From NCBI GenBank assembly GCA_964017235.1, contig OZ024934.1:88936706-89000705 (forward strand): a DNA stretch of 64,000 nucleotides, in the 5' to 3' direction. The notes under the pieces were generated by a model. The model was given only the letters and a program-made list of their open reading frames with translations. It was not told the origin of the DNA and did not search any database. The DNA is from Sabellastarte sp. h YS-2021. Lineage: Eukaryota > Annelida > Polychaeta > Sabellida > Sabellidae. The first letter of the stretch is position 1. Every line of letters starts with the position of its first letter. Positions 5,868-53,463 of this stretch are shown one piece after another. The position numbers and the translations under genes are program-made.

Positions 5868-6170
5868 GGACTCTGTAGGGCAACCACTGGCCCACCAGAG
5901 GCATAGCAGTCCGTCCGATATTGGCTGTAGCTGGTGGCACACCAATGGCATGACCAGCTAATAGACAGTGGTCCACCATTGGCAGCCGACAATAAGGTTT
6001 AATAGTGGTCCATCAGTGGCCCACTGTCGGCAACAAATGATAATCTTTTCTATTGGTCCACCTTCAGTAGCCAATGACCCAGATAGCTTGCAGACGTTGG
6101 CCCACCATCGGCATATACATCAGTCTGATGTTGGCAGCCACCGTTGATCCAATGGCTTTTTAGCTGGCGG
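5868..6170 (+). repeat. Cluster of GGCCCACCA / TCGGC imperfect repeats
   Basis: Imperfect units such as TTGGCCCACCATCGGC and GTGGTCCACCATTGGC recur. The cluster opens with CCCAGATAGC, and a second CCCAGATAGC lies near 6078. The twin cluster is at 10380-10690. A related remnant near 32150-32225 ends in the reverse complement, GCTATCTGGG. This suggests short elements with CCCAGATAGC ends, but I could not define a complete copy. Confidence 0.45.
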
Positions 6171-7407
6171 ATGACACGGCGATCAGATGGAGTTATGTGG
6201 TTATTGTTTAACAGAAGGCAAATAATTTACAGACTGTGGGTGTATTTTAGTTTGAGGGAATCCCTGATAAGTCACATGACCAAACATAAACAATGATGGA
6301 ACAGTATCTTAAGATGATATAATCCATAATCAAATAATAAAATTATAATGTTCGGAAACAACTTTTCTTACTGTGAACTTATAATGAGAATGTTATTTTT
6401 ATGTATAAAATTGTTAATTAGTTAGTAAAAAATTGTGGGCTCAATGAAATATAATTTTTAGACATACCATAATAAATGATTTTTTATTAAGTTTTCAAAA
6501 ATCCCCTATTATTGCTCACTGCCATCTTGAATTAAAATCCACCTTTGGCCCAATCTTGGCCCAACGTAGACAGAATATAGAGTTATTAATGCAGCCTGAG
6601 TTTTGGTTGGCAAGCCACCAGTGGATCAACATGCTTTGTGAAATCGGCCCCAGATAACTTGCTCATTGCTTCACTTGGCTACATCTGGTATTTTTAGACA
6701 TGGAGTAATGAAATTTTGAATGAAAGGTATGGGAAGTATTCTAATATTGACAATAATTATTTTTGTGTTGGAATAGCATTTTTTCAAAGTATTACAGTTT
6801 TATTTATCAAATAAAATTACGAAATCATAAACGTTATTTTACTATCTTCTCCTGGGTGAGGGTTGATGTCACCATTTTTTGTTTATCTGAATATTGATTG
6901 GCAGGATTACTCAAAAGCGCAGAACAGACTCATGACATTTCTTGTTAAAGATCTTCTCACTTGCATATATTTGTTGGTCCCCATGTGCTGTGTAGGCAGA
7001 TAAAAATCCTTGCAAAAACTGTAAAAGACCCTGGATTTTCAGGTGTGCTATAGTATTTACCCTTATACACCCTTGCACTGGATAAATATCTCATTACAAA
7101 CTGTGGGTGTAGACCAACGGCATGTTTGAATTTCAAATATACCTGTTGATCTCTTTTTGATCTTTGTCCCATTAAAAGCATCTTGGCTTTGTGGCATTTT
7201 CTGTAAAAATAGTTTAGAAACTGAGAAAAGTTATGTGTAGTCCTACAAATGCTGTCAAAATGTTTTACTGTCAGTGTAAAATTGAAATGGCCAATGAAAA
7301 CTCCACAACAAAAAATATGTGCTGCTTCACATCGTGCATATTTTGTTATAATACCCCTCATCACACAAATACTAGAAATATATGTTTGCCTACAAAAATG
7401 AAGAAGC

Positions 7408-8230: not shown

Positions 8231-10379
8231 AAAGATTTGAAATGCGAAAACAACTCATAGAAAATCATGTCCTGCAAATTTTTTGCAAGTACCGAGTTTG
8301 ACATTTGACCCTTGCTTCAAGATAAAGTGGGGTCATCATACTAAAGAGGCCTATATCTCCCTTATTATTGATTCTGCAGCTTAGAAATGTGAAGCTTAGA
8401 ACAAATCATGTCCAGCAAATCTTTTGCAAGTGTAGAATTTGAGCTTTGACCTCTGCTTAAAGGTCAAGTGGGGTCAACATACTAAAAAGATCTTATATCT
8501 CCCTTATTATTGGTTCTAGAGCTTTGAAGTTTGAAAACAACCTGCAAACCTTTTGCAAGTGTGGAATTTGACCTTTGACCCCTGCTTCAAGGTCAAGTGG
8601 GGTTATCATACTGAACAGGCCTTATATCTCCCTTATTATTGGTTCTGGAGCTTGAAAATGTGAAAGCAACCTGGAAGTCCTGGAAATTTTTGGAAAGTGT
8701 GGAATTTGATCTTTGATCCCCTGCTTCAATTAGGTTCATTTGGTTCATCATATTGAAAAGACCTTTTATCCCCCTTATTATTGCACCTTGAGCTCTGAAC
8801 ACTGTTTCATGGTCAGATTACCCCCAATTTTGCTTAATTCCTGGTGGGAGATAAAACCATGACAGCAGTCTTGTTTCGTATAAGTTGTTAATTTTCAGTG
8901 TAATTTTGTACAATACAGTGATTAACCCTATTCTTTACAATTGTTCTCCATCAACCGTAAGGTTGAGTATGCTGTACAATTGTGAATATTGTTTCATTCT
9001 TAAGTAATGGTCTGAAATTATTGATAAAATATTTGCACAGGGTTAATATCTAGCATATAGCCAAATCTTTCTGACCCAAGTTGTTATGTTCTTGATTACT
9101 TCCCAAAATAAATCAGGAGGGATATACTGGATTCAAGTCCATCAGGCAACCACTGTAGAAATTTCATTGTGTATGTGATAACTCAAAAAGTTATTGAATT
9201 GTTATCAAAGATAAACTATTGAAGATGATCTAAGGAAGATCCCTATTTTCAGGAAAAATTGATTTTTAGGTCATTTTAAGGCCTTATTACCAGATAAATA
9301 TGGCCAAAGACTAATTTAGGGAGGTGCTCTATATATTTTTCTTTATTTCAGGCATTTAAAATTATGAAGGGAGAAAAATGTTTGGTATAATTTTGACATT
9401 TTACCCTTTTCTAGGTCACATGATCAAAAACGTTTATTTCTCTTGTTCCTTTTTTTATACCAGATTTTCTCAGAAAGTTGTATTTCTTTAAGTATGGCTT
9501 TTTGATTGACAAAATTTGACAAGCACTTTCATTATTAAAATATAAGTGCTAGATGATTTTCATATCAGTCAGGCATTAATTTATTGATTGAGTGTTGATT
9601 GATTCTCATGTCATAAAAACATACTGGAACTGACCCTTTTTGTCATGTAGCATATATTTATTCACATTCAGGAGCTACAAATGTAAGTATGGTTTAAAAC
9701 TATGGGAGTCTTTCACACTTTTCAAAATGGAAATGTTAGGTGAAAATGCATATAATATTATGCTCAAAAATTTTATTATTATATCCCCAGATGAAAGTTG
9801 GGGATACACTGGATTCCACCATCGCCGTAGAAATTTCCTTGTGTACGCGATAACTCAAAAATGGATCAATTTTTTTTTTAACTTGGTAAGCATGGTAAAG
9901 GTGGCCGAAGAAAGATCCCTATTTTAAGGTGACCTTAAACTCCCTAAAATATAGAACTTAAGGTCATCTTAAGTCTCAAATGGACCTATGGCTACTTAAA
10001 GCCCTCTAGGTCAAACTGTGTTAGATAAAACTTTCATATGTAACCTCTGTAGAAAATTTCAAGTCTGTAGCATTATGTTTAAGGTCATCTTAAGGTCTCT
10101 AAATTGCCTGCTGAGAACCAATGTATAGACTTTTGGCTACTTTAAAGGCCCATAGATGTCAAACTTTGTGACTGATAGAGCTGAAATCTCATCTGGGAAT
10201 GTATTAATATATTCTTTTAATTTATCAATGACATTAAAATTTTTCAAAGGAAGGCCTGTCAACTTAAAAATTGAATATTAATGATATTTAAAGCTTAAAG
10301 AAACTGTGTTTTTATCCCTCTGCTTGCTGAGTTTTAACGTTTTAAAAGCAAACTGCTTACACATATTAAAAAAGGTCAA

Positions 10380-10690
10380 ACCCAGATAGCAGGACTCTGT
10401 AGGGCAACCACTGGCCCACCAGAGGCATAGCAGTCAGTCCGATATTGGCTGCAGCTGGTGGCACACCAATGGCATGACCAGATAGACAGTGGTCCACCAT
10501 TGGCAGCCGACAATAAGGTTTAATAGTGGTCCATCAGTGGCCCACTGTCGGCAGCAAATGATAATCTTTTCTATTGGTCCACCTTCAGTAGCCAATGACC
10601 CAGATAGCTTGCAGACATTGGCCCACCATCGGCATATACATCGGTCTGATGTTGGCAGCCACCGTTGATCCAATGGCTTTTTAACTGGCG
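10380..10690 (+). repeat. Second copy of the GGCCCACCA / TCGGC cluster
   Basis: This is the copy-2 counterpart of 5868-6170 with a few substitutions. It opens with CCCAGATAGCAGGACTC. The minus-strand open frame across it is a by-product of the repeats. Confidence 0.45.
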
Positions 10691-11076
10691 GATGACACGG
10701 CGATCAGATGGAGTTATATGTGGTTATTGTTTAACAGAAGGCTGTGGGTGTATTTTAGTTTGAGGGAATCCCTGATAAGTCACATGACCAAACATAAACA
10801 ATGATGGAACAGTATCTTAAGATGATATAATCCATAATCAAATAATAAAATTATAATGTTCGGAAACAACTTTTCTTACTGTGAACTTATAATGAGAATG
10901 TTATTTTTATGTATAAAATTGTTAATTAGTTAGTTAAAAATTGTGGGCTCAATGAAATATAATTTTTAGACATACCATAATAAATGATTTTTTACTAAGT
11001 TTCCCAAAATCCCCTATTATTGCTCACTGCCATCTTGAATTAAAATCCACCTTTGGCCCAATCTTGGCCCAATGTA

Positions 11077-11139
11077 GATAGAATATAGAGTTATTAATGC
11101 AGCCTGAGTTTTGGTTGGCAAGCCACCAGTGGATCAACA
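11077..11139 (+). repeat. Start of a third duplication unit, truncated
   Basis: The first 63 bp of the duplicated unit reappear, from GATAGAATATAGAG to GGATCAACA. The sequence then switches to LINE A coding sequence. The switch marks either the 5'-truncated insertion point of LINE A or the duplication breakpoint. Confidence 0.8.
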
Positions 11140-12516
11140 GTGTGTGTACCATCATAGAGCAGGTCACCAAAATCATTCAAGACTCTCCCACTAAATCATG
11201 TTCCCTTGACCCTTGGCCCACTTTTCTTGTTCTTGAATTCCTGGATATTCTTATTACCCCCATCACCTCAATAATCAACGCCTCTCTAGCACAAGGTACG
11301 TGTCCTAATTTCTTTAAGCAGGCCCATGTAACCCCAATTCTCAAAAAATCATCCTTAGACAAGGAAGTTTTAAAAAATTACAGGCCTGTTTCCAATCTAA
11401 ACTTTATTTCAAAGATACTTGAAAGGGTAGTAGCAGCCCAGCTACAAACTCACCTTGATGAAGCCGGCCTGATGACTGCCTTCCAGTCGGCTTATAGAAA
11501 ACACCATTCTACTGAAAGTGCCCTCCTTAACATTCATAATGATATTCTTCTCAATATGTCCAAAGGGTCTGTTACAGCCCTCACCCTTCTAGATCTCTCC
11601 GCTGCTTTCGATACCATTGATCACACTATACTCCTGGACAGACTTAATGGTTACTATGGAATCAGGGAACTGGCACTCGGCTGGTTCAAATCATACCTGT
11701 CGGGAAGGACACACTCGGTCAAGGTAGGCAGCACACTCAAATCCTGTTGCCCTTCAGCATGGGGTCCCCCAGTGCTCCGTCCTTGGTCCAATTCTTTTTT
11801 CCCTTTACACCAACCCAATCAGCTCCATCATTCAATCTCACAATAGCATCAATTACCATTTCTACGCCGATGACACTCAGCTATACATTTCACTCTCTGC
11901 AGCAAATTTTTCTCGCTCTGTACAAAAACTAAAAAATTGCCTAAACGACATCCAAAACTTCATGTTCACAAATAAATTAAAACTCAACCCTGATAAAACT
12001 GAGTTCATTTTGATAGGTTCGAAAAACAACAGTAAACAACTCCTTCCTCGCTTTCCAATCAATATTCTTGGTAATCAGGTCTCACCAGCACAAAGTGTCA
12101 AGAACCTCGGAGTGGTGTTTGATTCCAATTTCACTTTCTTCGACCATGTGTCACAGGTCATAAAGTCCACTAGAGCTCATGCAAGAGACCTCTACAGAAT
12201 ACATCCCCTTCTAGACCTTAAAACATCAGTTCTTTTAGCCAATGCCTTGGTCAGCAGCAGACTGGACTACTGCAATTCCCTGTTTCTATCACTCACAGAC
12301 TTTGAGCTAAGAAGATTGCAACTAGTGCATAACTCACTCTGCAGGGTTGTCACCCGTTCCTCAAAATTTTCTCACATCACCCCTCAACTGAAAAAACTCC
12401 ATTGGCTTCCAGTTAGGTATAGGGTACAATTCAAAATAGGCCTCATTACATACAAAATCCTCAACCAAGGTCAGCCTGTTTACCTAAGAGAACTAATCCA
12501 CCCCTACACTTCCTCC
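11140..12516 (+). pseudogene. LINE A, reverse transcriptase part (CR1/L2-like), interrupted
   Basis: This is the reverse transcriptase of a non-LTR retrotransposon, which copies its RNA at a nicked target. Visible parts in order are the pre-RT linker, KNYRPVSNL (finger region), [16 protein letters not shown], palm motif A in [17 protein letters not shown] replacing the usual GVPQ box, a YADD box read in another frame near 11861, [13 protein letters not shown], and the thumb-like region with SRLDYCNSL and [18 protein letters not shown] frameshift lies near 11740-11750 and the frame changes again near 11940-11962. The endonuclease half is missing, as in a 5'-truncated insertion. Coding stops after TSS at 12516 and continues in phase at 29078, so 16.6 kb was inserted later. 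Confidence 0.88.
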
Positions 12517-12550
12517 CCCTTCTTGGTGAAATAAAGAGATTATAAGTGTA
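12517..12550. other. Short left remnant between LINE A and the Polinton-like element
   Basis: These 34 bp belong neither to LINE A nor to the element that follows. Together with 23687-23931 on the far side they form the site into which the Polinton-like element inserted. The last six bases, AGTGTA, are the left target duplication. Confidence 0.6.
12545..12550. repeat. Left 6-bp target-site duplication AGTGTA
   Basis: AGTGTA directly precedes the AGTAGTTATT terminus and recurs directly after the mirrored terminus at 23681-23686. Six bases is the known duplication length for Polintons/Mavericks. Confidence 0.85.
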
Positions 12551-12595
12551 AGTAGTTATTAGGGAGCAGTTCACGAGGTAAGTCAGAGTAATAGG

Positions 12596-12660
12596 GTCGG
12601 TCAAAGGTCAGGGGTCATAGGTCAGGAAGTGACGTCATATACATGTCAATCATCACGTGA
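12596..12660 (+). promoter_or_regulatory. Terminal DR1 / TGACGTCA / CACGTG module (left arm, module 1)
   Basis: Two overlapping direct-repeat hexamer pairs (CGGTCAAAGGTCA and GGGTCATAGGTCA) precede TGACGTCA at 12630-12637, and CACGTG follows at 12654-12659 with exactly 16 bp between them. In animals these resemble a nuclear-receptor DR1, a CRE (CREB/ATF) and an E-box (USF/Myc type). The motifs are seen; binding is inferred. They could equally be sites for an element-encoded protein. Confidence 0.5.
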
Positions 12661-13281
12661 CAGGATGGTGGCTTGTGATTGGAGGGTGGATGTCAACTAT
12701 CGCATAGAGAGGGTGGGCGTGTTCATGTCAAAGAGAAAATGATGAGTGATGGATCTCTATTGTAAGGCCAGTGTGAAATTATCTAAGACTTTGGAAGAGT
12801 AATTATTTTGATTATAGAATGTATAATTAATCATTTTGAAAAAGACTCTTTGTTGTTTGGTATTGTAAGACCTTTCAGGTGAAAGAATTCAATTTTTAAA
12901 AAGCTCCGATTACAAAGACCAAGGCTGTTCCAACGATTAAAATTTGAAATTGTACAAAGAGGAGATGATGAATGATGACAGTGGAAGGACATTTATCTTG
13001 ATTTTAGCATCGACAAGTGATTAATCTGTTTTTAAACAGTGCACCCAAGGTTCTTCCAACGGTTAAAATTTGAAATCCCCCCTTCTTTTTGAAAAATGCT
13101 GATGAGGCTGAGATATTTTAAAATGCTGACATCAGCATCTTAACTTTATTTGTAATTTCAAGCTCGATTCATCAACATGGTAACCCAGGGCTTTTCATTG
13201 TCCACTCGGGACAAAGAATTTTCAAACAATGTTTGGAAACCTAATATATTAAGCGAAAAAATAAAAGAGTGTAATAGGGTC

Positions 13282-13342
13282 GGTCAAAGGTCGCGGGTCA
13301 TAGGTCAGGAAGTGACGTCATGTATATGTCAATTATCACGTG
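13282..13342 (+). promoter_or_regulatory. Module 2 of the DR1 / TGACGTCA / CACGTG series
   Basis: TGACGTCA at 13313-13320 and CACGTG at 13337-13342 are again separated by 16 bp and preceded by CGGTCAAAGGTC and GGGTCATAGGTCA. This is the inner copy created by the 683-bp repeat. Confidence 0.5.
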
Positions 13343-13399
13343 ACAGGATGGTGGCTTGTGATTGGTTCTAGGATTCCTGGGATTCCTAGTAAAAGGAAC

Positions 13400-13429
13400 A
13401 GACGTCATATTGATGGCATGTGTCACGTG
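13400..13429 (+). promoter_or_regulatory. Module 3, with AGACGTCA and CACGTG
   Basis: AGACGTCA (one base off the palindrome) at 13400-13407 and CACGTG at 13424-13429 keep the 16-bp spacing. No direct-repeat hexamers precede it. It is too close to module 2 to be a 683-bp repeat copy. Confidence 0.45.
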
Positions 13430-14228
13430 ATAGGATGGTGTACTTGAATGGTATTGATGACCGATGGGTGGGCTTGACTTTGTGGAGATTTTAATATATG
13501 GGCAGATGTCATTTGATTGATGGGGTTGTTTTTCTGTAAAAGAGGAGCAGTAGCAACAGGAGACAATCTATGAACTTGTCTCTTGTGACACTATTTTTAC
13601 AATAACATATATTTTGCTACACGTACAAGCAGACATACAAGTAATATTTAAAACACACACATAAATTGGAGGAGATTGTTTACCTCAAAGGCAAACCTAT
13701 CCTTTTGTGTCAGTAAAGAATGTTTTTTTGTAACAAGAGGTTTTGATTGATTGGCAATTGAGAATGTGCCTGTTTCAAGGAACACGTGTAATTATAGTGT
13801 TTACACAGCTTGCTACTTTCAACATCAAAAACACTATGTTCCTTTTTTACAAGGTGTTGATGTAAGGGCATACAATAATGGTTTTTAGAATAAAAAATGA
13901 ACTTTCTGGTCACCCGTTCTCACCAATAATTTGCTCTTGTGTGTGTGTGTGTGACACTCGCTTATCTTTCTTGTTTTAAAATCAGATTATCACACAATTA
14001 CACAGCATTTCCCCTAAGTCATGTATAATAACAAAAAAACAGATATTAGGAACATTGACAAGAAACAAATGTTTGTCTTGTGTAAATATTTATGACAAGA
14101 GAACATTTACCATAAAATATATATGTAAGCTGGTGGAATCTTTTCAGCTATGTAAATGTGTATCATTATATTATTATGGTTGTTTAGCATGATAGCAGAT
14201 TGCCATCAGTTTTGGTCCGTTGTAGCAT

Positions 14229-14276
14229 AGGTCAAAGGTCAAGAGATGACGTCATATGGATGTCATATGTCACGTG
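14229..14276 (+). promoter_or_regulatory. Module 4, with a perfect DR1
   Basis: AGGTCAAAGGTCA is followed by TGACGTCA at 14247-14254 and CACGTG at 14271-14276, again 16 bp apart. The bases around it differ from modules 1-3, so the spacing was kept while the surroundings changed. Confidence 0.5.
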
Positions 14277-14949
14277 ACAGTATTGATGGGTGGGCGTGTC
14301 CATGTAACGAGGAGATGGTGGGGATTGAAGGACATATCACCTGGAAGGGTAATTATTTTTAGAAAAGAGTGTGAGGTTTTGATTGATGGGTTTCCTTGTA
14401 AAGATGAGGATTGATGGACAAAATTATTTTAATGATAGTGCTTGGCATCAAGATGTCTATCAATAATGAATCATTTTGAAGGGACTTTTAATTGTTTTGC
14501 AAGGGTTATGAGGCATTATTTAAACCCAAGGTTGTTCCAACTGTAAGAAATAATGGAGACCTTATCCCAAGTGGAGGAGGAGGAGTTTAAGTTTAGCCTT
14601 AAATTTAGGGTTTTTTGACTTTTGGTGAACTTAAAAGACGTGGGTGAGGGTTAGAGGTTTAAAGGAGATATATTTGAAGGCAGACTTTTAACATTCAGTG
14701 ACTTTATGAGTTTAAGTTTTGTGGGGAGTGATTAAAAGACAGAAACCTTTGGTAACTTAAAGACTTTTAAATTTGGAGACTTTAAAATACAAAAGAAATT
14801 CTAAAGGTCTTTTCAGATTTTAACTCGTTTATATGTAAAAATAATAAAGAAGATATTCTTTAAAAGACAAAAGAAAATAATGCAATGCTACTGCTGGTCA
14901 TAATATCTCCAGTGCTTCAAAAGATCAGAGGCAGACCCATACTTCAACT

Positions 14950-15500
14950 GTGGACTCATAAGGTCTATGCGTGAAAGGCTAAGCCTTAATTTGTAGGCTC
15001 TATAGCCTATTATAGACCATGGCTTGTAAAACTGAACCTCTCAAAGCCTCCATGCGTGTCAGGCTAACTCTCAAACTCTGTAGAATCTTTTTTTTGAGCC
15101 TTAAAATTAGGCTTTTGGAGAGTTCCAATTCTAATTGTACTTTTATAGTGCTTAATCTCCCATAAAACACAGCCTCAAAGGTTACAGACAGTATCAACAC
15201 TTGAGAAAAAACCAGATTATGGCCAAATTTAGAGTGGATAAATGAAAGGTTTTAAAGCCTATTGTTGACAATGCCTTATAAAACCGAGCCTTTGCACATG
15301 TCAGGCTAAGCCTTAAATCTGAGGCTCTATGGCCTATTATACAGCATGACATTTAAAACTGAGTCTCTAAAAGCCTCTATGTGGCTAAGCCTCAAATCTG
15401 TGGCTCTATAACCTATTGTAGAGCATTGCTTATAAAACTGAGCCTCTAAAAGTCTCTATGTATGTAAGGCTAAGCCTTACATCTGAGGCTCTATAGCATA
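14950..15500 (+). repeat. Degenerate repeat of about 75-110 bp, inner left arm
   Basis: Units of the form GGCTCTATAGCCTATTATA, TTATAAAACTGAGCCTCTAA and AGGCTAAGCCTTAAAT recur, and further loose copies lie at 15890-16060 outside the TIR. The core AAGGCTAAGCCTT is a near-palindrome. The mirror image is at about 19340-19960. Confidence 0.65.
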
Positions 15501-15780
15501 TTATACATCATAACTAGTTGTTTATTTTGAAATTAAGATATTTTACACCATCAAATATTTTCCTGGGGTAAAGCTGTATGTTAGTATGTTGTGAGATTTT
15601 ACAACAGATTTCCTCATATACAGTACCATACATTAGATTCAATGTTTATACATTGTTATTACTTTCTCCTCATAAAAGAGTTATCGTTTCCACACAAAGA
15701 ATTTGGCCACCTTTAGTGTTTCATACTTTGAAAAACACGGAAATGTGGGTGATAATAAAAGATTTAATGTCTATGCCGAC

Positions 15781-16190
15781 AATTTCACCTCATATTTAGA
15801 AGTATTCTAAAATCCTTTGTAGCCTCAAAAAGCAGTTGTTCACAGAACTCTTGTGTATAAAAGGTTGAGCCTCTTTACCAATGCTTAAAATCCTCTTGTA
15901 GAGCAGGAGTTATAAAACTCAGCAAAGAGGAGCCTCTAATACGCTGGGGTGTGCATGTGTGTGTGTGTGAGTGTGATGCTCAACTTCACAGCTTAGCCTC
16001 AGAGAACCCCTATGCGTAAGGCTAAACCTTAAATATGAGGCTCTATAGCCATAACTCTACAACATAAACTTAAATTAAGGAGTATTTATTCTAGAGAAAC
16101 GTGTGCTAATGCCTCAAAACTTTTACATGAAATGGAATGTTGTTGCCTGTATTGCATCATTGTTAAAGTATCATCCAAAGAGTGCACATC
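15781..16190 (+). promoter_or_regulatory. Upstream region of the ATPase gene
   Basis: This 410-bp stretch lies between the inner end of the left arm and the ATPase ATG. It contains a short TG-rich run near 15955-15970 and two loose copies of the arm's GGCTCTATAGCC-type repeat. I see no clear TATA box at a convincing distance. Being the only non-TIR sequence upstream, it is the natural place for the promoter, which is an inference from position only. Confidence 0.35.
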
Positions 16191-17846
16191 ATGACTACAC
16201 CAAAGACATTTAAGTGCTTTTCCTGTGACAAGAGCTATCGTTGGAAATGTGATCTTAAACGACACCAAATGTTAAAGCACAAAGATAACTACATTATGCA
16301 GACACCGATGGATAACAGCATCATGGAACTGACTGAGGATGCAGACTATGCATTTCAGCACCCATTCACTATGACAATCAGTGGCCCAACAGGTTCGGGG
16401 AAGACATTTTTTATCAGAAAAGTGCTGGAAAATTATAAAATCAATCCAATTCCGCAGAGAATAATTTACCTGTACAAACGTTGGCAACCACTGTACGATA
16501 CACTGAAGTTGAATGTAAAACCAAAAATAGAATTCATCAGAGGCATTCCAGATGATTTAGATGCAGACAGCTTCTTCCATACAGACAACAATAACGTTAT
16601 TGTATTAGATGATATGATGGATATTGCCGGAAATAACAAGGCAGTGTCAGATTTATTCACAGAAGGCTCTCATCATCGAAATTTAAGTGTCATTAATTTG
16701 ACTCAGTCACTTTTTCCTAAGGGGAAAAATAGTGTAACACAGCGCAGGAACACACAATATTTAGTAATATTTAAATCACCAATGTCTCAGGACCAAATAG
16801 CACAGCTTGGCAGGTTTATGTTTCCCAGCAAACTGGATACATTTTTGTCAGTGTACAGAAAGGCTACATTACCAGCATTCGGATATTTGATTATCGATGG
16901 AAAAGTAAACACACCAATAAGCCAGAGATTAGTTACAAATATTTTCACTCCATCAGTGGACAAGCAGCATGGATCTGGAATTCCTGTGCAAAGTCAAAAC
17001 TTTATTGATAAACAAAAACAGACACCCCCATCAGAAATGGGATATCCCAATCAAAGTCTACCACCCCCACCGGGTATCCCAAATACAGAGCAAGTGGGTA
17101 GGGGTATAAATGGTATTACACCGACTGATTCCTTCACTGAAGCAGAAGATTCAGAAAGTGACATGGATGTTTCAAATACCATACCGTGCAGATACTGTGG
17201 TATATTATTCGATGACTGGGATAGCTTACAAAAACATTTAATGTATGGGTGTGTATATGATAAAAACGGGAATGAAGAGGTCCCTCCAAAGCCAGCACAG
17301 AATAAAAAACAGAAACTAGAGGATGCTTTTGATGAGGATCTAGAGAACGACCTTGTCTTTACCAAACTGTTTGAAGATGCTAAGGAAATGCTTAGGGATG
17401 AATGGGAGGAAATTCGTAATCAGTATATTGCTGATGGCACAACAGAAAAAGAATCCGCAAGAAAAGCTCATGCTAAGATGCTGGAAAAGTATAAACAGGA
17501 CTTTTTCAGTCTGTACAAGCAGCTTTTAGAGTCCATGTTCAACCTTCAGAAGAATGGTGTGCATAATTTGATCTTGGAAGAAATCAACGATCTTGTTGGC
17601 AAGCACCGCAATGTAGAAAAGATTATCCGATGGGTTTTGGCCAAAAACAAATTTATGTTTGAAGATTTGTTTTCCCAAGAGGATGATGATGATGATTCAG
17701 AGGATGCTGATACAACTGACACACAATCAGAAAGCAACGAGGCCGAGAGTGAAGCCAGTGATTTTGAATCTGAAGACAACATCAGTGGTGCTGACCAAGA
17801 TGCTTATAACAACACAAGCCAAAGTGGAGCAGCATTTTCATTTTGA
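16191..17846 (+). CDS. C2H2 finger - P-loop ATPase - C2HC finger protein (packaging-ATPase-like)
   Basis: This is the only intact sizeable gene of the element, 551 residues in one exon. ATG at 16191 is chosen because the longer frame opens with GTG and a stop lies 18 bases above that. Residues about 9-30 form a finger of spacing C-x2-C-x12-H-x4-H. GPTGSGKT at 65-72 is Walker A. NVIVLDDMMD at 135-144 is Walker B, and INLTQSLF near 168-175 sits where a sensor strand is expected. Residues 333-354 form C-x2-C-x12-H-x4-C. A Lys/Glu-rich, probably helical region follows, then an acidic Asp/Ser/Glu tail from about 495. The core resembles the A32/FtsK-HerA-type ATPases that pump DNA into virions, including those of Polintons. 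The finger fusion is not part of the usual Polinton ATPase as I know it. Alternatives are a DNA-translocating or partner-recognition factor, or another STAND/AAA-like P-loop enzyme. Confidence 0.75.
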   Translation: MTTPKTFKCFSCDKSYRWKCDLKRHQMLKHKDNYIMQTPMDNSIMELTEDADYAFQHPFTMTISGPTGSGKTFFIRKVLENYKINPIPQRIIYLYKRWQPLYDTLKLNVKPKIEFIRGIPDDLDADSFFHTDNNNVIVLDDMMDIAGNNKAVSDLFTEGSHHRNLSVINLTQSLFPKGKNSVTQRRNTQYLVIFKSPMSQDQIAQLGRFMFPSKLDTFLSVYRKATLPAFGYLIIDGKVNTPISQRLVTNIFTPSVDKQHGSGIPVQSQNFIDKQKQTPPSEMGYPNQSLPPPPGIPNTEQVGRGINGITPTDSFTEAEDSESDMDVSNTIPCRYCGILFDDWDSLQKHLMYGCVYDKNGNEEVPPKPAQNKKQKLEDAFDEDLENDLVFTKLFEDAKEMLRDEWEEIRNQYIADGTTEKESARKAHAKMLEKYKQDFFSLYKQLLESMFNLQKNGVHNLILEEINDLVGKHRNVEKIIRWVLAKNKFMFEDLFSQEDDDDDSEDADTTDTQSESNEAESEASDFESEDNISGADQDAYNNTSQSGAAFSF

Positions 17847-18449
17847 GATATAAGGAGAAAAGTGAGACAATGCCTTTATGTAAATGTTTTAATGCATACT
17901 CCAGAATAATGCTATTGAAAACTTGACACCAGTTGAAGACAGCAGCTAAAAAATTCTGCTAAAGCAACAACTACATGGGACACATCACTGCCAGTTTGTA
18001 GTGGACCTATCTCTATCATTTTATATAAAACATGTATTTTTCAATGTAGCTTACAGCCTACAGGTGAGCAGAATAAAAGCCTCTAGTATTTATTCGATGT
18101 ATTGTTTCTATCTATTATGTTGGGCATAATGTGCTTACAATCAATTTATAGATTTTATATAATTGACTTTTATGAAATACATCACAAAATATTATTTAAT
18201 GTAAAATCTGTAAAATTTTATTTATGTAAAACTTGATGTAAATAGTTTTCACATTTGAGAAACTTTAGAATGCATGCTGTCAGCCAATAAAAAATCTTTA
18301 TATTATTTTGTTATTTTGCCACCAATCAGTGTTCACTTGTACATTTCAATGTTTCTGTATGGCAAAGATACCTATTATTTGGCATTATAAATCACTTTCT
18401 AAGCTAAATCTACTGTAATAAAGTTTGAGTCTCAGCTTGGGCACTTCAT
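17847..18449 (+). promoter_or_regulatory. 3' flank of the ATPase gene with AATAAA signals
   Basis: AATAAA occurs at 18072-18077 and 18286-18291, downstream of the stop in the sense of the gene, in AT-rich DNA. Either could direct polyadenylation. No other frame is credible here. Confidence 0.4.
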
Positions 18450-18600
18450 GTTGGAAAGTTGGTAGTTATTTACTGATGCCCGGTGGTTTGCAGTGTAGAA
18501 TCTTGACCAACTAGTATGCACTGGCTCCCACACCCCTAAACTACCCAACGCAATATGACCCTGACTGTTGAACGTGACATAAAACAAAAATTAAATATAA
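18450..18600 (+). mobile_element. 5'-truncated, diverged tRNA-type SINE
   Basis: The sequence follows the tail half of the complete SINE at 38911-39149: an AGTTGGTAGTT stretch, GGTTTGCAGTGTAGAA, ACTAGTATGCACTGGCTCCC, CTACCCAACGCAATATGACC, and a closing ATAAAACAAAAATTAAATA. The tRNA-like head is absent. It lies between the ATPase gene and the right arm, so the element carried or received a host SINE. Confidence 0.6.
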
Positions 18601-19339
18601 TCTAATCTAATTCAAGGTGGCCTTATCATGCTTTTTGTTTACAAAATTGCAATTTAAAATTGTAGATCTTCAGATTTTCTAATATGGATATTCAGAGTGC
18701 TTATTTTATTTCACATGGATTAATATTGGGAGTACATGCCTTTTTAAAGTTCTGTTTCTGTCTTTCACATTAGTAATTGCAGTAGAAGCTCTATTATCCA
18801 GCCCTCTTAGGAGTAATAGTGTTACGATGTACAGAGTCGATTTTCTCTAGTTTCTGTCGGCATAGACATTAAATCTTTTATTATCACCCACATTTCCGTG
18901 TTTTTCAAAGTATGAAACACTAAAGGCGGCCAAATTCTTTGTGTGGAAACGATAACTCTTTTATGAGGAGAAAGTAATAACAATGTATAAACATTGAATC
19001 TAATGTATGGTACTGTATACAAGGAAATCTGTTGTAAAATCTCACAACATACTAGCATACAGCTTTACCCCAGGAAAATATTTGATGGGTTAAATTCCTT
19101 AATTTCAAAATAAACAACTACTTCTAAAATTTCAGGCTGACATATATGTGTATGTTAATACCTCTCTGTCTGTCCATTTGTTGTTTGCAACATTGTTTAT
19201 TGCTTTTGTTTATGATGAATTATTTACCCCCCACCAAATTAATTATGGCAGTTGTACATAAGGTTTAGACTTTTGTGCTTTGGATACTGCATTTGCATAT
19301 GAATGCTTAGCGTTACAAGCATAAAAGTTTTTAAAGGCT

Positions 19340-19960
19340 CCATTTTATAAATTATGATGTATAATATGCTATAGAGCCTCAGATGTAAGGCTTAGCCTTA
19401 CATACATAGAGACTTTTAGAGGCTCAGTTTTATAAGCAATGCTCTACAATAGGTTATAGAGCCACAGATTTGAGGCTTAGCCACATAGAGGCTTTTAGAG
19501 ACTCAGTTTTAAATGTCATGCTGTATAATAGGCCATAGAGCCTCAGATTTAAGGCTTAGCCTGACATGTGCAAAGGCTCGGTTTTATAAGGCATTGTCAA
19601 CAATAGGCTTTAAAACCTTTCATTTATCCACTCTAAATTTGGCCATAATCTGGTTTTTTCTCAAGTGTTGATACTGTCTGTAACCTTTGAGGCTGTGTTT
19701 TATGGGAGATTAAGCACTATAAAAGTACAATTAGAATTGGAACTCTCCAAAAGCCTAATTTTAAGGCTCAAAAAAAAGATTCTACAGAGTTTGAGAGTTA
19801 GCCTGACACGCATGGAGGCTTTGAGAGGTTCAGTTTTACAAGCCATGGTCTATAATAGGCTATAGAGCCTACAAATTAAGGCTTAGCCTTTCACGCATAG
19901 ACCTTATGAGTCCACAGTTGAAGTATGGGTCTGCCTCTGATCTTTTGAAGCACTGGAGAT
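19340..19960 (-). repeat. Degenerate GGCTCTATAGCC repeat, inner right arm
   Basis: This is the mirror of 14950-15500, with the same AAGGCTTAGCCTT-type near-palindromes on the opposite strand. Confidence 0.65.
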
Positions 19961-21500
19961 ATTATGACCAGCAGTAGCATTGCATTATTTTCTTTTGTCT
20001 TTTAAAGAATATCTTCTTTATTATTTTTACATATAAACGAGTTAAAATCTGAAAAGACCTTTAGAATTTCTTTTGTATTTTAAAGTCTCCAAATTTAAAA
20101 GTCTTTAAGTTACCAAAGGTTTCTGTCTTTTAATCACTCCCCACAAAACTTAAACTCATAAAGTCACTGAATGTTAAAAGTCTGCCTTCAAATATATCTC
20201 CTTTAAACCTCTAACCCTCACCCACGTCTTTTAAGTTCACCAAAAGTCAAAAAACCCTAAATTTAAGGCTAAACTTAAACTCCTCCTCCTCCACTTGGGA
20301 TAAGGTCTCCATTATTTCTTACAGTTGGAACAACCTTGGGTTTAAATAATGCCTCATAACCCTTGCAAAACAATTAAAAGTCCCTTCAAAATGATTCATT
20401 ATTGATAGACATCTTGATGCCAAGCACTATCATTAAAATAATTTTGTCCATCAATCCTCATCTTTACAAGGAAACCCATCAATCAAAACCTCACACTCTT
20501 TTCTAAAAATAATTACCCTTCCAGGTGATATGTCCTTCAATCCCCACCATCTCCTCGTTACATGGACACGCCCACCCATCAATACTGTCACGTGACATAT
20601 GACATCCATATGACGTCATCTCTTGACCTTTGACCTATGCTACAACGGACCAAAACTGATGGCAATCTGCTATCATGCTAAACAACCATAATAATATAAT
20701 GATACACATTTACATAGCTGAAAAGATTCCACCAGCTTACATATATATTTTATGGTAAATGTTCTCTTGTCATAAATATTTACACAAGACAAACATTTGT
20801 TTCTTGTCAATGTTCCTAATATCTGTTTTTTTGTTATTATACATGACTTAGGGGAAATGCTGTGTAATTGTGTGATAATCTGATTTTAAAACAAGAAAGA
20901 TAAGCGAGTGTCACACACACACACACAAGAGCAAATTATTGGTGAGAACGGGTGACCAGAAAGTTCATTTTTTATTCTAAAAACCATTATTGTATGCCCT
21001 TACATCAACACCTTGTAAAAAAGGAACATAGTGTTTTTGATGTTGAAAGTAGCAAGCTGTGTAAACACTATAATTACACGTGTTCCTTGAAACAGGCACA
21101 TTCTCAATTGCCAATCAATCAAAACCTCTTGTTACAAAAAAACATTCTTTACTGACACAAAAGGATAGGTTTGCCTTTGAGGTAAACAATCTCCTCCAAT
21201 TTATGTGTGTGTTTTAAATATTACTTGTATGTCTGCTTGTACGTGTAGCAAAATATATGTTATTGTAAAAATAGTGTCACAAGAGACAAGTTCATAGATT
21301 GTCTCCTGTTGCTACTGCTCCTCTTTTACAGAAAAACAACCCCATCAATCAAATGACATCTGCCCATATATTAAAATCTCCACAAAGTCAAGCCCACCCA
21401 TCGGTCATCAATACCATTCAAGTACACCATCCTATCACGTGACACATGCCATCAATATGACGTCTGTTCCTTTTACTAGGAATCCCAGGAATCCTAGAAC

Positions 21501-23640
21501 CAATCACAAGCCACCATCCTGTCACGTGATAATTGACATATACATGACGTCACTTCCTGACCTATGACCCGCGACCTTTGACCGACCCTATTACACTCTT
21601 TTATTTTTTCGCTTAATATATTAGGTTTCCAAACATTGTTTGAAAATTCTTTGTCCCGAGTGGACAATGAAAAGCCCTGGGTTACCATGTTGATGAATCG
21701 AGCTTGAAATTACAAATAAAGTTAAGATGCTGATGTCAGCATTTTAAAATATCTCAGCCTCATCAGCATTTTTCAAAAAGAAGGGGGGATTTCAAATTTT
21801 AACCGTTGGAAGAACCTTGGGTGCACTGTTTAAAAACAGATTAATCACTTGTCGATGCTAAAATCAAGATAAATGTCCTTCCACTGTCATCATTCATCAT
21901 CTCCTCTTTGTACAATTTCAAATTTTAATCGTTGGAACAGCCTTGGTCTTTGTAATCGGAGCTTTTTAAAAATTGAATTCTTTCACCTGAAAGGTCTTAC
22001 AATACCAAACAACAAAGAGTCTTTTTCAAAATGATTAATTATACATTCTATAATCAAAATAATTACTCTTCCAAAGTCTTAGATAATTTCACACTGGCCT
22101 TACAATAGAGATCCATCACTCATCATTTTCTCTTTGACATGAACACGCCCACCCTCTCTATGCGATAGTTGACATCCACCCTCCAATCACAAGCCACCAT
22201 CCTGTCACGTGATAATTGACATATACATGACGTCACTTCCTGACCTATGACCCGTGACCTTTGACCGACCCTATTACACTCTTTTATTTTTTCGCTTAAT
22301 ATATTAGGTTTCCAAACATTGTTTGAAAATTCTTTGTCCCGAGTGGACAATGAAAAGCCCTGGGTTACCATGTTGATGAATCGAGCTTGAAATTACAAAT
22401 AAAGTTAAGATGCTGATGTCAGCATTTTAAAATATCTTAGCCTCATCAGCATTTTTCAAAAAGAAGGGGGGATTTCAAATTTTAACCGTTGGAAGAACCT
22501 TGGGTGCACTGTTTAAAAACAGATTAATCACTTGTCGATGCTAAAATCAAGATAAATGTCCTTCCACTGTCATCATTCATCATCTCCTCTTTGTACAATT
22601 TCAAATTTTAATCGTTGGAACAGCCTTGGTCTTTGTAATCGGAGCTTTTTAAAAATTGAATTCTTTCACCTGAAAGGTCTTACAATACCAAACAACAAAG
22701 AGTCTTTTTCAAAATGATTAATTATACATTCTATAATCAAAATAATTACTCTTCCAAAGTCTTAGATAATTTCACACTGGCCTTACAATAGAGATCCATC
22801 ACTCATCATTTTCTCTTTGACATGAACACGCCCACCCTCTCTATGCGATAGTTGACATCCACCCTCCAATCACAAGCCACCATCCTGTCACGTGATAATT
22901 GACATATACATGACGTCACTTCCTGACCTATGACCCGTGACCTTTGACCGACCCTATTACACTCTTTTATTTTTTCGCTTAATATATTAGGTTTCCAAAC
23001 ATTGTTTGAAAATTCTTTGTCCCGAGTGGACAATGAAAAGCCCTGGGTTACCATGTTGATGAATCGAGCTTGAAATTACAAATAAAGTTAAGATGCTGAT
23101 GTCAGCATTTTAAAATATCTTAGCCTCATCAGCATTTTTCAAAAAGAAGGGGGGATTTCAAATTTTAACCGTTGGAAGAACCTTGGGTGCACTGTTTAAA
23201 AACAGATTAATCACTTGTCGATGCTAAAATCAAGATAAATGTCCTTCCACTGTCATCATTCATCATCTCCTCTTTGTACAATTTCAAATTTTAATCGTTG
23301 GAACAGCCTTGGTCTTTGTAATCGGAGCTTTTTAAAAATTGAATTCTTTCACCTGAAAGGTCTTACAATACCAAACAACAAAGAGTCTTTTTCAAAATGA
23401 TTAATTATACATTCTATAATCAAAATAATTACTCTTCCAAAGTCTTAGATAATTTCACACTGGCCTTACAATAGAGATCCATCACTCATCATTTTCTCTT
23501 TGACATGAACACGCCCACCCTCTCTATGCGATAGTTGACATCCACCCTCCAATCACAAGCCACCATCCTGTCACGTGATGATTGACATGTATATGACGTC
23601 ACTTCCTGACCTATGACCCCTGACCTTTGACCGACCCTAT
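21501..23640 (-). repeat. 683-bp tandem repeat, three units plus terminal module
   Basis: The landmark CAATCACAAGCCACCATCCT starts at 21501, 22183, 22866 and 23549, so the period is 682-683 bp. Each unit carries CACGTG, 16 bp, TGACGTCA and the TGACCTTTGACC-type hexamers. The left arm has only two such landmarks (near 12661-12681 and 13344-13364), hence one unit. The copies look almost identical, as in a recent expansion by unequal exchange or replication slippage. Confidence 0.9.
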
Positions 23641-23680
23641 TACTCTGACTTACCTCGTGAACTGCTCCCTAATAACTACT

Positions 23681-23686
23681 AGTGTA
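23681..23686. repeat. Right 6-bp target-site duplication AGTGTA
   Basis: This directly follows the terminal AATAACTACT of the Polinton-like element and matches 12545-12550. Confidence 0.85.
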
Positions 23687-23931: not shown

Positions 23932-26503
23932 TTAATAATAATAATAATAATAATAATAGTAGGATTTATATAGCGCAAAATTGATAATCCTCTAATGCGC
24001 TTGAGTCCAAGAAGGGAGAGTCCAGGGACAGGCATGGGTTGACATCTAAAAAGCACCCGCCAGGGTATAGCTAAGGTGGGGGGGTATGCCAGCCTAAACA
24101 AGTAGGTCTTTCGCTGGCTTCTGAAACCATCTATTGTTTGCTGAGATCTGACAGTCTGTGGCAGCTTGTTCCATTCGGCTGGTGCAGCTACTGCAAAGCC
24201 ACGTCTTCCTATGTGCTTATTGGGGTGGGCTGAGGAGATAGATAGCCTGTTGCCACGAGTGAGACTGCTCGATCTTATTAATGCTGAAAGATACAGGGGC
24301 TGTGAAAGATTAATAGCCTTGTACTTAAACAGGATGCGATGTTGAATTGGGAGCCAGTGGAGTTTTTTCAAAAAGGGTGTAACATGACTCATTTTGTCAA
24401 GTCTGAAGATGATGTGGCAAAGAGCATTCTGGACTCTCTGTAGTTTGGCTATGTTGGACTTGCTTACCCCATAGAGTAAAGAGTTACAGTAGTCTAGACA
24501 ACTACTGACCATAGCATTTGCCAGAAGTATTGCTGTCTCAACTCCAAGGAATTTGCGAATTCGTCGCAAATCACGAAGATGATAGTAACATGCTCTGCAA
24601 ACCTTGGCAACATGATTGTCAAAGGAGTTGTCTGAGTCGAAAATAACACCCAGATTTTTTACTTCCACCGACGGAGAGATATTGTTTTGGAGGAGTGGAA
24701 CAGGGAAATCTGGTGCAAGCGACTCTCTGATGGCTTTTTGACCTATAATGATAAATTCGGTTTTTTTCTGGGTTTAGTTTTAGTTTGACACCGTCCATCC
24801 ATTCCTGTACAGACTTGAGACACTCGGTCAGCTCTTCCATGCTAGAGTCAAAATTCCTGGAGTCAACTGCGAGGTAGATCTGGGTGTCATCGGCATACAG
24901 GTGATGAGTAACATTGAATTTTGAAATAACTTGACTGAGGGGACTAGTGTAGAGGGTGAAAAGGAGAGGACCCAGTACAGAGCCTTGGGGGACTCCAAAA
25001 GGGAGAATTACCGCCTCAGAGAAACTATCACCTATTTTAATTTTTTGTTTACGGTTTGAAAGATACGATTTGATCCATGACAAGACAGTACCATCTAGAC
25101 CAAACCAGTCATGCAAGCAGTCATACAAAAGAGAGTGATCAATCGTATCAAACGCTACCGATAGGTCTAATAATGTTAGGGCCACTGCCTTTCCTGAGTC
25201 CACTGAGAGAATTATATCATTTTGAATCTCCAACAATGCGGTTTCAGTGGAGTGGGAACTCTTATAAGCAGACTGGTTGACATTTAAGAGCCCCTCGTGC
25301 GAAATAAATTTATTTAGCTGCTTTGCCACCACCTTCTCAATAAGTTTAGATATAAAGCTGAGGTTTGACACCGGCCTGTAGTTTTTGAGGATATTTCTAT
25401 CAAGGCTCGGCTTCTTTTGAAGGGGGGGTGACATATGCCATCTTAAAACAGTTGGGGAAACTACCTTCTGTGACTGAATAATTTACAATTTTAGTGATGG
25501 GGGTGATGAGAATATCAGCATACTCCTTGACCAGTGACGTCGGAATCGGGTCAAGGTCACATGATTTGGATGGTGAGGACTTTAGAATTTTGAGTAGTTC
25601 TTCCACGGACACAGGTGTGAAAGAGGACAGTGTATTTTTAGTGGGGTTGGGTCTAGTAACTGAAGATGGTATTGATGACTGCAGTGTGGATCTTATCTTG
25701 AGGATTTTGTCATAGAAGAACTTGCAGAAAGTGTTCGCAAGGTCAGTTTTATTTGTGTAGTCTGGTAGAACAGCAACAGAGGACCTGTGTAAGATCTTTT
25801 TGAAACAGTTCCACAGAGCCTTGGGATTTCCTTGGTTTTCAGCCACAATGTTGGAATAATGATTGCATTTGAACTTCTCTAGCAGGAAATTATAGTGGTT
25901 GATTGCAGCCCGCTATTGGCTACGATTACTGGCTGAGTTTTCACGACGCCATGCCCGCTCATATTTCCTCTTGAGTCGTTTTGCTTTGAGGATGTCACAG
26001 TTCATGAAACCAGTCTCGGCATGTCTCGGTATATTTTTCTTCATGATTGGGGCGTGCTTGTCAAGAAAGCTTCTCAAAGTATTAAAGTATTGATGACTGA
26101 GAAGACTGGCAGGTTTGTACGGGCATCTAATGAGGTCAGATTTCAGGATATCCATTCTAAAATCTGAAATATTTATCTTGTGAATTTTACGGATGGGAAC
26201 ACATTGAAACTTACAGGATTCCCTGACAGGGAAGATAAAGCTGAATATGATTGCCTGGTGGTCTGATAGTCCCCCAATAACTTTGGGACTAATGGCCCAG
26301 GAGAATGAATCCCTCACACATAGAGCATCCAAAATATGACCCTGAATATGTGTAGGTGTATTGACAAGTTGTGTAAAACTGAATTGCTCAAGGATATCAT
26401 AAAATTTCAGTGTCCAGGTGTCATGTTTATCCAGATGAAAATTAAGATCTCCAAGGAGAATACTGAGCGGCATCAGAGTCTGTGACTCATCTGAACCAAT
26501 CAT
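23932..26503 (-). pseudogene. LINE B, minus-strand copy (CR1/L2-like), 5' truncated
   Basis: Read leftwards: the second half of an APE-type endonuclease (LLGDLNFHLD and the LSDHQAI catalytic box, 26503-25913), a linker (25846-25400), reverse transcriptase (25434-24770) with [45 protein letters not shown] and YADDTQIYL, and a C-terminal region with SCLDYCNSLLYG and [16 protein letters not shown]. It ends in the conserved 3' segment GCGCTATATAAATCCTA and an (ATT)n tail. Frame changes near 25900, 25430 and 24770-24660 break it. The first half of the endonuclease is absent. Confidence 0.87.
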
Positions 26504-27443: not shown

Positions 27444-27959
27444 GGGGCTCTTAAATGTCAACCAGTCTGCTTATAAGAGTTCCCACTCCACTGAAACCGC
27501 ATTGTTGAAGATTCAAAATGATATAGCTCTCTCAGTGGACTCAGGAAAGGCAGTGGCCCTAACATTATTAGACCTATCGGCGGTGTTTGATACAATTGAT
27601 CATTCTCTTTTATATGACTGCTTGCATGACTGGTTTGGTCTAGATGGTACTGTTTTGTCATGGATCAAATCGTATCTTTCAAACCGTAAACAAAAAAACA
27701 AGGGGCTCTTAAATGTCAACCAGTCTGCTTATAAGAGTTCCCACTCCACTGAAACCGCATTGTTGGAGATTCAAAATGATATAACTCTCTCAGTGGACTC
27801 AGGAAAGGCAGTGGCCCTAACATTATTAGACCTATCGGTAGTGTTTGATACGATTGATCACTCTCTTTTGTATGACTGCTTGCATGACTGGTTTGGTCTA
27901 GATGGTACTGTCTTGTCATGGATCAAATCGTATCTTTCAAACCGTAAACAAAAAATTAA
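27444..27959 (+). repeat. 258-bp in-frame tandem duplication inside LINE B reverse transcriptase
   Basis: GGGGCTCTTAAATGTCAACC occurs at 27444 and 27702, a 258-bp (86-codon) step. Each copy encodes NVNQSAYKSSHSTETALL and the FDTIDH motif-A region. The two copies differ at a few sites (LSAVFDTIDH against LSVVFDTIDH), so the enzyme could not fold normally. Confidence 0.9.
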
Positions 27960-29077
27960 AATAGGTGATAGTTTCTCTGAGGCGGTAATTCTCCCTTTCG
28001 GAGTCCCCCAAGGCTCTGTACTGGGTCCTCTCCTTTTCACCCTCTACACTAGTCCCCTCAGTCAAGTTATTTCAAAATTCAATGTTATTCATCACTTGTA
28101 TGCCGATGACACCCAGATCTACCTAGCAGTTGACTCCAGGAATTTTGACTCTAGCATGGAAGAGCTGACCGAGTGTCTCAAGTCTATACAGGAGTGGATG
28201 GACAGTGTCAAACTAAAACTAAACCCAGAAAAAAACGAATTTATCATAATAGGTCAAAAAGCCATCAGAGAGTCGCTTGCACCAAATTTCCCTGTTCCAC
28301 TCCTCCAAAACAATATCTCTCCGTTCCCGGTAAGTAAAAAATCTGGGTGTTATTTTCGACTCAGACAACTCCTTTGACAATCATGTTGCCAAGGTTTGCA
28401 GAGCATGTTACTATCATCTTCGTGATTTGCGATGAATTCACAAATTCCTTGGAGTTGAGACAGCAATACTTCTGGCAAATGCTATGGTCAGTAGTTGTCT
28501 AGACTACTGTAACTCTTCACTCTATGGGGTAAGCAAGTCCAACATAGCCAAACTACAGAGAGTCCAGAATGCTCTTTGCTGCATCATCTTCAGACTTGAC
28601 AAAATGAGTCATGTTACACCCTTTTTGAAAAAACTCCACTGGCTCCCAATTCAACATCGCATCCTCTTTAAATATAATTTTTTGGTATTCAAGGCTATTA
28701 ATCTTTCACAGCCCCTGTATCTTTCAGCTTTAATAAGATCGAGCAGTCTCACTCGCGGCAACAGGCTATCTATCTCCTCAACCCGCCCTAAGAAGCACAT
28801 AGGCAGGCGTGGCTTTGCAGTAGCTTCACCAGCTGAATGGAACAAGCTGCCACAGACTGTCAGATCTCAGCAAACAATAGATGGTTTCAGAAGCCAGCTA
28901 AAGACCTACTTGTTTAGGCTGGCATACCCCCCACCTTAGTCATACCCTGGCGGGCGCTTTTTAGATGTCGACCCATGCCTGTCTCTGGACTCTCCCTTCT
29001 TGGCCTCAAGCGCATTAGAGGATTTGTATCAATTTTGCGCTATATAAATCCTACTATTATTATTATTATTATTATTT

Positions 29078-30287: not shown

Positions 30288-31240
30288 TACCCCACAGCCC
30301 TTAAGGGCTGTCAGGGTATTGTTTTCACCCATGGTGTCCAGATGGGCGGCTGGGCGGGCGGCGGGAAAAAAGTTGTCCGGCCTGTATCTCAAAAACCGTA
30401 AGGTGTAGGAAGTTGATACTTGGTAGGGACATTAGTTAATGGGTGCAGGTATGCAACGTTATGGTCTGACCTTGATATGACCTTTGACCTTGTCGTAGTG
30501 ACCTTGACCTATAAAATCTTGTCCAGGCCATATCTTGGAAACCGTAAGGTGTAGGAAGTTGATACTTGGTAGGGACATTGGTTATGGGTTGTAGGTGTGC
30601 AACATCAGGGTGTGACCTTGATTTGACCTTCGATCTTGCTGTAGTGGCCTTGACCTATAAAATCTAGTCCTGGCTATATCTCGGAACCGTAAGATGTAGG
30701 AAGTTGATACTTGGTAGGGACATTAGTTAGTGGGTGTAGGTGTGCAACGTTATGGTGTGACCTTGATTTGACCTTTGACTTGCTGTAGTGACCTTGACCT
30801 TGTCCGGGCTATATCTTGGCAGCCATAAGGTGTAGGAAGTTGATACTTGGTAGGGGCATTGGTTAGGCTGTGCAGGTGTGCAATGTCATGGCGTGACCTT
30901 GATTTGACCTTGCTGTAGTGACCTTGATGTATAAAATCTGGTCCTGGCTATATCTCAGAAACCATAAGGTATAGTAAGTTGATACTTGGTAGGGACATTG
31001 GCTAGTGTGTGTAGATGTAAAACATCATGGTGTGGCCTTGATTTGACCTTTGACCTTGCCGTAGTGACCTTGACCTATAATGCATTGTCTGGGCTATATT
31101 TCGGAAACCATAAGGTGTAGGAAGTTGATATTTGGTCGGGGCATTGGTCGGGGGTTATAGGTGTGCAACGTCATGGTGTGACCTGGATTTGACCTTTGAT
31201 CTTGCATATCTGATCTTGCATATCCCCAGGCTGTGGGGTA
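30288..31240 (+). mobile_element. Hairpin-ended element with tandem-repeat core (pearl/Helentron-like)
   Basis: The left end TACCCCACAGCC matches GGCTGTGGGGTA at 31229-31240 as a perfect 12-bp inverted repeat. Just inside the left end is the perfect hairpin ACAGCCCTTAAGGGCTGT, then a GGCGG-rich run. Six units follow, aligned on the ACCGTAAGGTG/CCATAAGGTG position at 30395, 30541, 30686, 30822, 30961 and 31107 (period 136-146 bp). Units include TAGGAAGTTGATACTTGG and TGACCTTGACC. The layout recalls oyster pearl elements. The true 3' end, expected some tens of bases beyond 31240, was not fixed. Confidence 0.6.
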
Positions 31241-53355: not shown

Positions 53356-53399
53356 TAAGCGTCCCGCAAGGGACGCTTGTTTGTGTATGGGAGAGCTTC

Positions 53400-53463
53400 T
53401 GGCTCCGCCGGCTCCGCCGGCTCCGGCGGCTCCGCCGGCTCCGCCGGCTCCGCCGGCTCCGCA
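53400..53463 (+). repeat. GGCTCCGCC microsatellite (9-bp unit, about 7 units)
   Basis: GGCTCCGCC is repeated near the left end of the Helentron-like element, with one unit reading GGCTCCGGC. The Gly/Ala-rich minus frame at 53329-53577 is only its translation. Confidence 0.9.

Follow-up and report, generated by a model that had tools for sequence, protein, structure and literature searches.

A Polinton/Maverick-like element with giant inverted arms and a single packaging-type ATPase gene

The window analyzed here is the whole stretch of 64,000 nucleotides from contig OZ024934.1 (positions 88,936,706 to 89,000,705, forward strand) of the Sabellastarte sp. h YS-2021 assembly GCA_964017235.1, and it contains at 12551–23680 an inserted element of 11,130 bp with exact ends. 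On balance, this element is considered to be a non-autonomous descendant of a bivalve-type Polinton/Maverick, with one intact packaging-ATPase gene between giant arms, although this is held with little more than even confidence. The observations which carry this reading are the ends and the duplication at the insertion site, the identity of the arms up to a sharp boundary, the intact ATPase with its packaging fold, its kinship to ATPases located beside Polinton-type genes, and the conservation of the core within its family. ATPase homology, gene neighbors, and the tree all indicate that the one gene left in the element is of a Polinton family.

Ends and arms of the element

The element is flanked by a perfect 6-bp target-site duplication (TSD), AGTGTA, located exactly at 12545–12550 and 23681–23686. 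A first-pass annotation of this DNA had reported the duplication together with AG...CT termini. Both are exact, and the termini are in fact longer, that is, AGTAGT at 12551–12556 (+) and ACTACT, as read on the + strand, at 23675–23680 (− strand feature), which correspond to the (AGT)2 and (ACT)2 motifs of Mavericks (PMC8097293). According to the same source, (AGT)2//(ACT)2 is the most frequent end motif of vertebrate Mavericks, the intact elements have 6-bp duplications, and the authors link the repetition of the motif to a "jumping-back" step of protein-primed replication. With this motif at its ends, the element is linked to Polintons more strongly than that annotation had it. Its proposal of Polinton-type integration is backed by the duplication, the end motif, and the long terminal inverted repeats (TIRs). 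AGTAGT is not rare throughout the window (34 observed vs. 31.0 expected), and thus the weight rests on its placement at both exact TIR ends, flanked by the perfect duplication. For comparison with the first 50–100 bp of full Polintons, the terminal sequence of the element is AGTAGTTATTAGGGAGCAG.

The arms, previously estimated at 3.2 and 4.8 kb, measure 3231 nt on the left (12551–15781, +) and 4826 nt on the right (18855–23680, −). The right arm contains two extra 683-bp units (about 22214–23579) and about 230 additional nt at 19124–19353. When the two surplus units are gapped out, the outer arms (12551–15511 against the right arm) show 0 mismatches in 2961 nt, whereas 8 mismatches and one indel are found over the next 269 aligned nt (Fisher p = 2e-9). 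The copies of the 683-bp unit differ by 0–2 nt. Identical outer arms next to diverged inner arms are hard to fit with one common age; most likely, one outer arm recently served as the template for the other, or the two were converted (homogenized).

Tandem units of 683 bp and about 79 bp are found in the arms. A 56-bp promoter-like module, with TGACGTCA, TCACGTGA, and AGGTCA half-sites, is first located at 12613–12668 (+) and has six copies in the element, starting at 12613 and 13296 (+) and at 21514, 22197, 22880, and 23563 (−), but none in the rest of the window with up to 3 mismatches allowed. The three sequences are presumably motifs of host factors, and the ends of the element may bear some likeness to those of adenoviruses. 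A diverged copy of this terminal module is located at 14228–14283 (+). The diverged copy near 14229 and the six recurrences suggest that the arms may have grown through tandem duplication of the terminal module. The palindrome AGGCTNAGCCT, at no more than 1 mismatch, occurs 10 times in the window (1.29 expected), always within the element. Six of the ten matches are spread over the inner part of the left arm and the sequence preceding the gene (14976–16029, +), and four are in the inner right arm (19388–19889, −).

The ATPase gene and its relatives

The only long intact open reading frame (ORF) of the element is found at 16191–17846 (+), in agreement with the single intact gene reported previously. 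Its product of 551 amino acids consists of a C2H2 finger, a packaging-type ATPase, another C2H2 finger, a helical domain, and an acidic tail. The ATPase domain (residues 52–250; 16344–16940, +) has a fold nearest to FtsK/HerA packaging ATPases, as the packaging-type assignment of the first-pass annotation had implied, and BFVD gave a match to Drosophila-associated adintovirus 3. Taken as a whole, the protein is a viral packaging ATPase of the FtsK/HerA type that also carries two zinc fingers and a helical region. For this all-helical domain (about residues 386–502; 17346–17696, +), structural comparison with BFVD and with 16 PDB chains gave no clear match.

In the search for other genes, the longest stop-to-stop frame besides the ATPase was one of 122 amino acids, antisense to the ATPase gene. 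Twenty of the 52 frames with at least 50 amino acids were given to Pfam, plus the ATPase; the frames kept from it were right-arm duplicates (16), frames inside the ATPase gene (12), and overlapping small frames (3). None of the 20 gave a match above the cut-off. A retroviral-like integrase gene was not found in this set, nor by tblastn with nine ATPase-integrase proteins of Mya (see below), which at E < 0.4 match the ATPase gene alone. Similarly, the same Pfam set gave neither a protein-primed family B polymerase, no frame outside that of the ATPase being longer than 122 amino acids, nor adenovirus-like protease and capsid genes, no frame being of capsid-gene size. No transposase ORF was found in the element. 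The Pfam check of these 20 frames for integrase, polymerase, and capsid came out empty, and no Polinton gene beyond the ATPase was found, as had been described.

Relatives of the ATPase amounted to 188 proteins by sequence search and 235 by alignment search, with the best 120 of each being considered. A P-loop (simple pattern) was present in 104 of the 143 fetched proteins, with several fragments among them. Of these 104, the N-terminal finger is found in 54 and the second one in 90, with both present in 47. All 16 organism-named proteins among the best 120 of 188 are from bivalves, that is, Mya, Mercenaria, Mizuhopecten, Pecten, Solemya, Pinctada, and Mytilus. Judged by these relatives alone, the window would probably be of bivalve origin. 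Among the matches listed, identity to the ATPase of the element is 98% for P0001, 91% for P0002, 90% for P0003, and 91% for P0006, and these clusters have 22, 4, 18, and 15 member sequences, respectively (59 together).

Amino-acid differences from the element's protein were counted in the core (199 residues) and in the other regions (333 residues, excluding residues 33–51), using protein sequences, whose databases favor intact frames. P0002 differs at 5/199 core positions against 40/333 elsewhere (p = 7.5e-5), and fewer core differences were also found for P0003 (p = 7e-6), P0004 (p = 1.5e-5), and P0005 (p = 7e-10). Differences clearly avoid the core in four of the six relatives compared and, judging from these proteins, the ATPase family is under constraint.

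Nine gene models of Mya arenaria (P0039, P0043, P0056, P0070, and P0139–P0143), eight of them named YMD3-like, join pieces of a viral-type ATPase and of a Polinton-type integrase. Although annotated as host genes, they are remains of mobile elements. These nine proteins, all from Mya and with P0070 itself among them, were the result of a search with the integrase part of P0070, which was picked for having both ATPase and integrase; the length limits of the search favor fused models. In all nine, a piece of a related ATPase is located upstream of the integrase, with only about 46 residues in P0143, and such fused models are evidence of adjacency rather than of a joined protein.

A search of bacterial and archaeal genomes yielded six contigs (L001–L006) with relatives of the ATPase, confirmed by tblastn. 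They are probably host or eukaryotic contamination of genome bins, including bins of Escarpia and Bathymodiolus symbionts. L004, from a Bathymodiolus symbiont bin, carries finger and ATPase pieces in a head-to-head arrangement with ORFs. One of these ORFs has a match to a DNA-polymerase PHROG (E 0.0011), and further stretches of this contig may be of Polinton polymerase. L002 has a match to the same PHROG (E 1.4e-4), an adenovirus-type protease above the cut-off, and a polymerase match below it. An integrase with a chromodomain is found above the cut-off in L001 and L005, and an integrase match below it in L006. Among the ATPases of L001–L005, Pfam A32 or IVa2 exceeded the cut-off for L001 and L003 only, with L002, L004, and L005 below it. 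No capsid gene on the six contigs reached the cut-off.

The tree of the ATPase cores included 146 of 149 sequences (three were dropped because of length or lack of a match), left out L006, and was rooted on L001, L002, L003, and L005. All nonroot sequences form one clade with modest support (0.736). Within it, the ATPase of the element is placed in a clade of 40 tips (support 0.991), with L004 branching off one node further out (0.899). Of eight integrase-linked Mya proteins looked for, six are in the tree, and these fall outside the 40-tip clade. The placement of polymerase- and integrase-linked members around this clade suggests that the ATPase of the element descends from within a family tied to Polinton-type genes, with no close relative known in a full element.

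Origin of the element and competing explanations

If the element derives from a bivalve-type Polinton/Maverick, the polymerase, integrase, protease, and capsid genes would have been lost from a full ancestor, with the ends and the ATPase kept, and the terminal repeats would have been enlarged to arms of 3–5 kb through tandem duplication of the terminal module. At the AGTAGT ends, the polymerase of a helper Polinton would use a terminal protein as primer. The strand displaced in this way would then fold back via the arms, copying one arm onto the other and keeping them identical, and the product would be inserted by the helper integrase through cuts staggered by 6 bp. The zinc-finger ATPase may bind the element's own DNA and drive its packaging or handling by the helper. 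Such helpers are plausible in bivalves, since a table in the hard-clam genome paper gives two values for Maverick, 1.69% and 1.93% (PMC8905726). A rather improbable extension, drawn by analogy, is that of a trans-mobilized Polinton satellite, the animal counterpart of phage satellites, whose fingers would recognize the AGGCTNAGCCT arrays of the arms and divert helper capsids or replication, the arms being rebuilt identical in each cycle by protein-primed fold-back replication.

Several points weigh against a Polinton origin of this kind. The integrase-linked evidence consists of gene models from one species. The polymerase call of L004 comes from the single PHROG match and from motifs in broken ORFs, and this polymerase was detected neither by Pfam nor by PDB sequence search. 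The 40-tip clade has no member known beside an integrase or polymerase. Furthermore, a core bias is absent in P0001, the closest relative (2/199 vs. 7/333, p = 0.49), and marginal in P0006 (p = 0.048), and conservation may act solely in full-length relatives. Finally, arms of 3.2 and 4.8 kb are far beyond the 46–1,447 bp given for the TIRs of intact vertebrate Mavericks (PMC8097293).

Long perfect palindromes are difficult to assemble and the element is known from one copy, as would be expected from an assembly artifact or a unique genomic rearrangement. This is the least probable explanation, because the arms differ in the number of units and in their inner divergence (8 mismatches in the inner part, and about 230 nt present in one arm only); in addition, a perfect TSD surrounds exact inverted ends, and a 98% identical ATPase is found in a separate record (P0001). 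The very large arms and the lack of any detected polymerase, integrase, or capsid gene would also fit a separate lineage that acquired an ATPase and converged on Polinton-like integration, as the first-pass annotation had considered. This is, however, very unlikely, since the (AGT)2 ends, the 6-bp TSD, and the ancestry of the ATPase all indicate the same group: the ATPase is homologous to those located beside integrase, protease, and polymerase-like genes, with which the tree agrees. A two-gene transposition system, in which the ATPase would pair with a borrowed integrase as in MuB/MuA or TnsC/TnsB, finds support in the order of ATPase before integrase in all nine Mya models and in zinc fingers suited to DNA binding. 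MuB and TnsC are AAA+ proteins, whereas the fold of the element's protein is nearest to FtsK/HerA packaging ATPases; the homologue in L002 adjoins protease and polymerase-like ORFs, and fused gene models prove adjacency alone. This system is thus quite unlikely.

A serious competitor, though somewhat improbable, is that the element arose from a full Polinton by a deletion that was recent or happened only once, with the ATPase as an undecayed passenger of no use to the element, which would be moved in trans or already dead. The ends, the TSD, and the kinship of the ATPase fit it equally, and identical arms would indicate a young copy (or recently converted arms) in which an intact ORF needs no selection, in line with the differences between P0001 and the element. 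Partial gene sets are also known, the ATPase being identifiable in 83% and the protease in 74% of the Polintons surveyed by Krupovic 2014 (PMC4028283). On the contrary, in that survey nine capsid-less Polintons had lost the ATPase and protease too, so that an ATPase without a capsid gene is unexpected. One intact gene centered between enlarged arms is, in our judgment, atypical of random deletion, the four nearest clusters (P0001, P0002, P0003, and P0006) comprise 59 member sequences, and the core is conserved in P0002–P0005. The ATPase may have been kept because the element is a satellite that directs its own packaging, or it may still be present because the deletion is young and the gene has had no time to decay.

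If a packaging motor alone is carried, and from a conserved motor family, it would be indirect evidence for packaging in animals and for parasites of packaging. Mavericks/Polintons encode capsid genes, and particles had not been observed at the time of the source (PMC8097293). The long homogenized arms would be a record of how such ends are replicated, and the zinc-finger ATPase family (its named members among the best 120 of 188 being all from bivalves) could serve as a marker for finding helpers and satellites. No account of an ATPase-only Polinton was found in the literature searched, the coverage of which is incomplete.

Surroundings of the element and comparison with known systems

A reverse transcriptase frame of a non-LTR (long terminal repeat) retrotransposon is located at 11082–12534 (+), with RVT_1 in 11082–11843, and the element begins 16 nt past its end. 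A second such frame with RVT_1 is found at 24622–25482 (−), and an inverted pair of non-LTR retrotransposon copies at 23937–25298 and 27698–29076 is 95.6% identical. Elsewhere in the window, there are a direct repeat of 2.9 kb (3678–6631 and 8233–11139, 95.9% identical), a tandem array at 30373–31205 (146-bp unit, about 6 copies, 80% matches), an ORF of 920 amino acids at 41977–44736 (+) that encodes DUF1280 (E 1e-19) and a RING finger, and satellite arrays at 52502–63786 with periods of about 320, 169, 133, 143, 155, and 133 bp, several of which are alike.

Polintons are described by their polymerase, integrase, protease, ATPase, and capsid genes (PMC11071308, PMC4028283, and PMC6431247). The comparison with them made by the first-pass annotation was right: the element shares the 6-bp TSD, the TIRs, the (AGT)2//(ACT)2 end motif, and a packaging ATPase of the FtsK/HerA-A32 class. 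It differs in having no detected polymerase, integrase, protease, or capsid gene, in its size (11.1 kb vs. 12.7–24.6 kb for intact vertebrate elements; PMC8097293), and in the two zinc fingers and the helical domain that its ATPase bears.

The same ATPase fold occurs in adintoviruses and related midsize linear viruses. According to a survey, some adintoviruses have zinc-finger genes, and a Tegillarca-clam adomavirus carries an FtsK/HerA homologue (PMC11071296). L001, L002, L005, and L006 resemble adintovirus-type gene clusters. Unlike the element, the clusters on these contigs hold other Polinton-type genes, and no fingers are apparent by eye in the ATPase frames of L001, L002, L003, and L005.

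Foldback-type elements (FB and TU) have very long terminal repeats, internal tandem repeats, and little coding capacity, with a TSD of 8–10 bp and a Mutator-type transposase. The long TIRs of the element, made of tandem repeats (683-bp and about 79-bp units), are a common feature, but it has a Polinton-type TSD length and end motif and a gene for a viral packaging ATPase. The 6-bp TSD and the lack of a transposase ORF speak against a foldback element.

Phage satellites (PICI/SaPI) redirect the packaging of their helper. The element, known from sequence alone, would share with them, as an analogy only, the logic of keeping one gene for packaging specificity.

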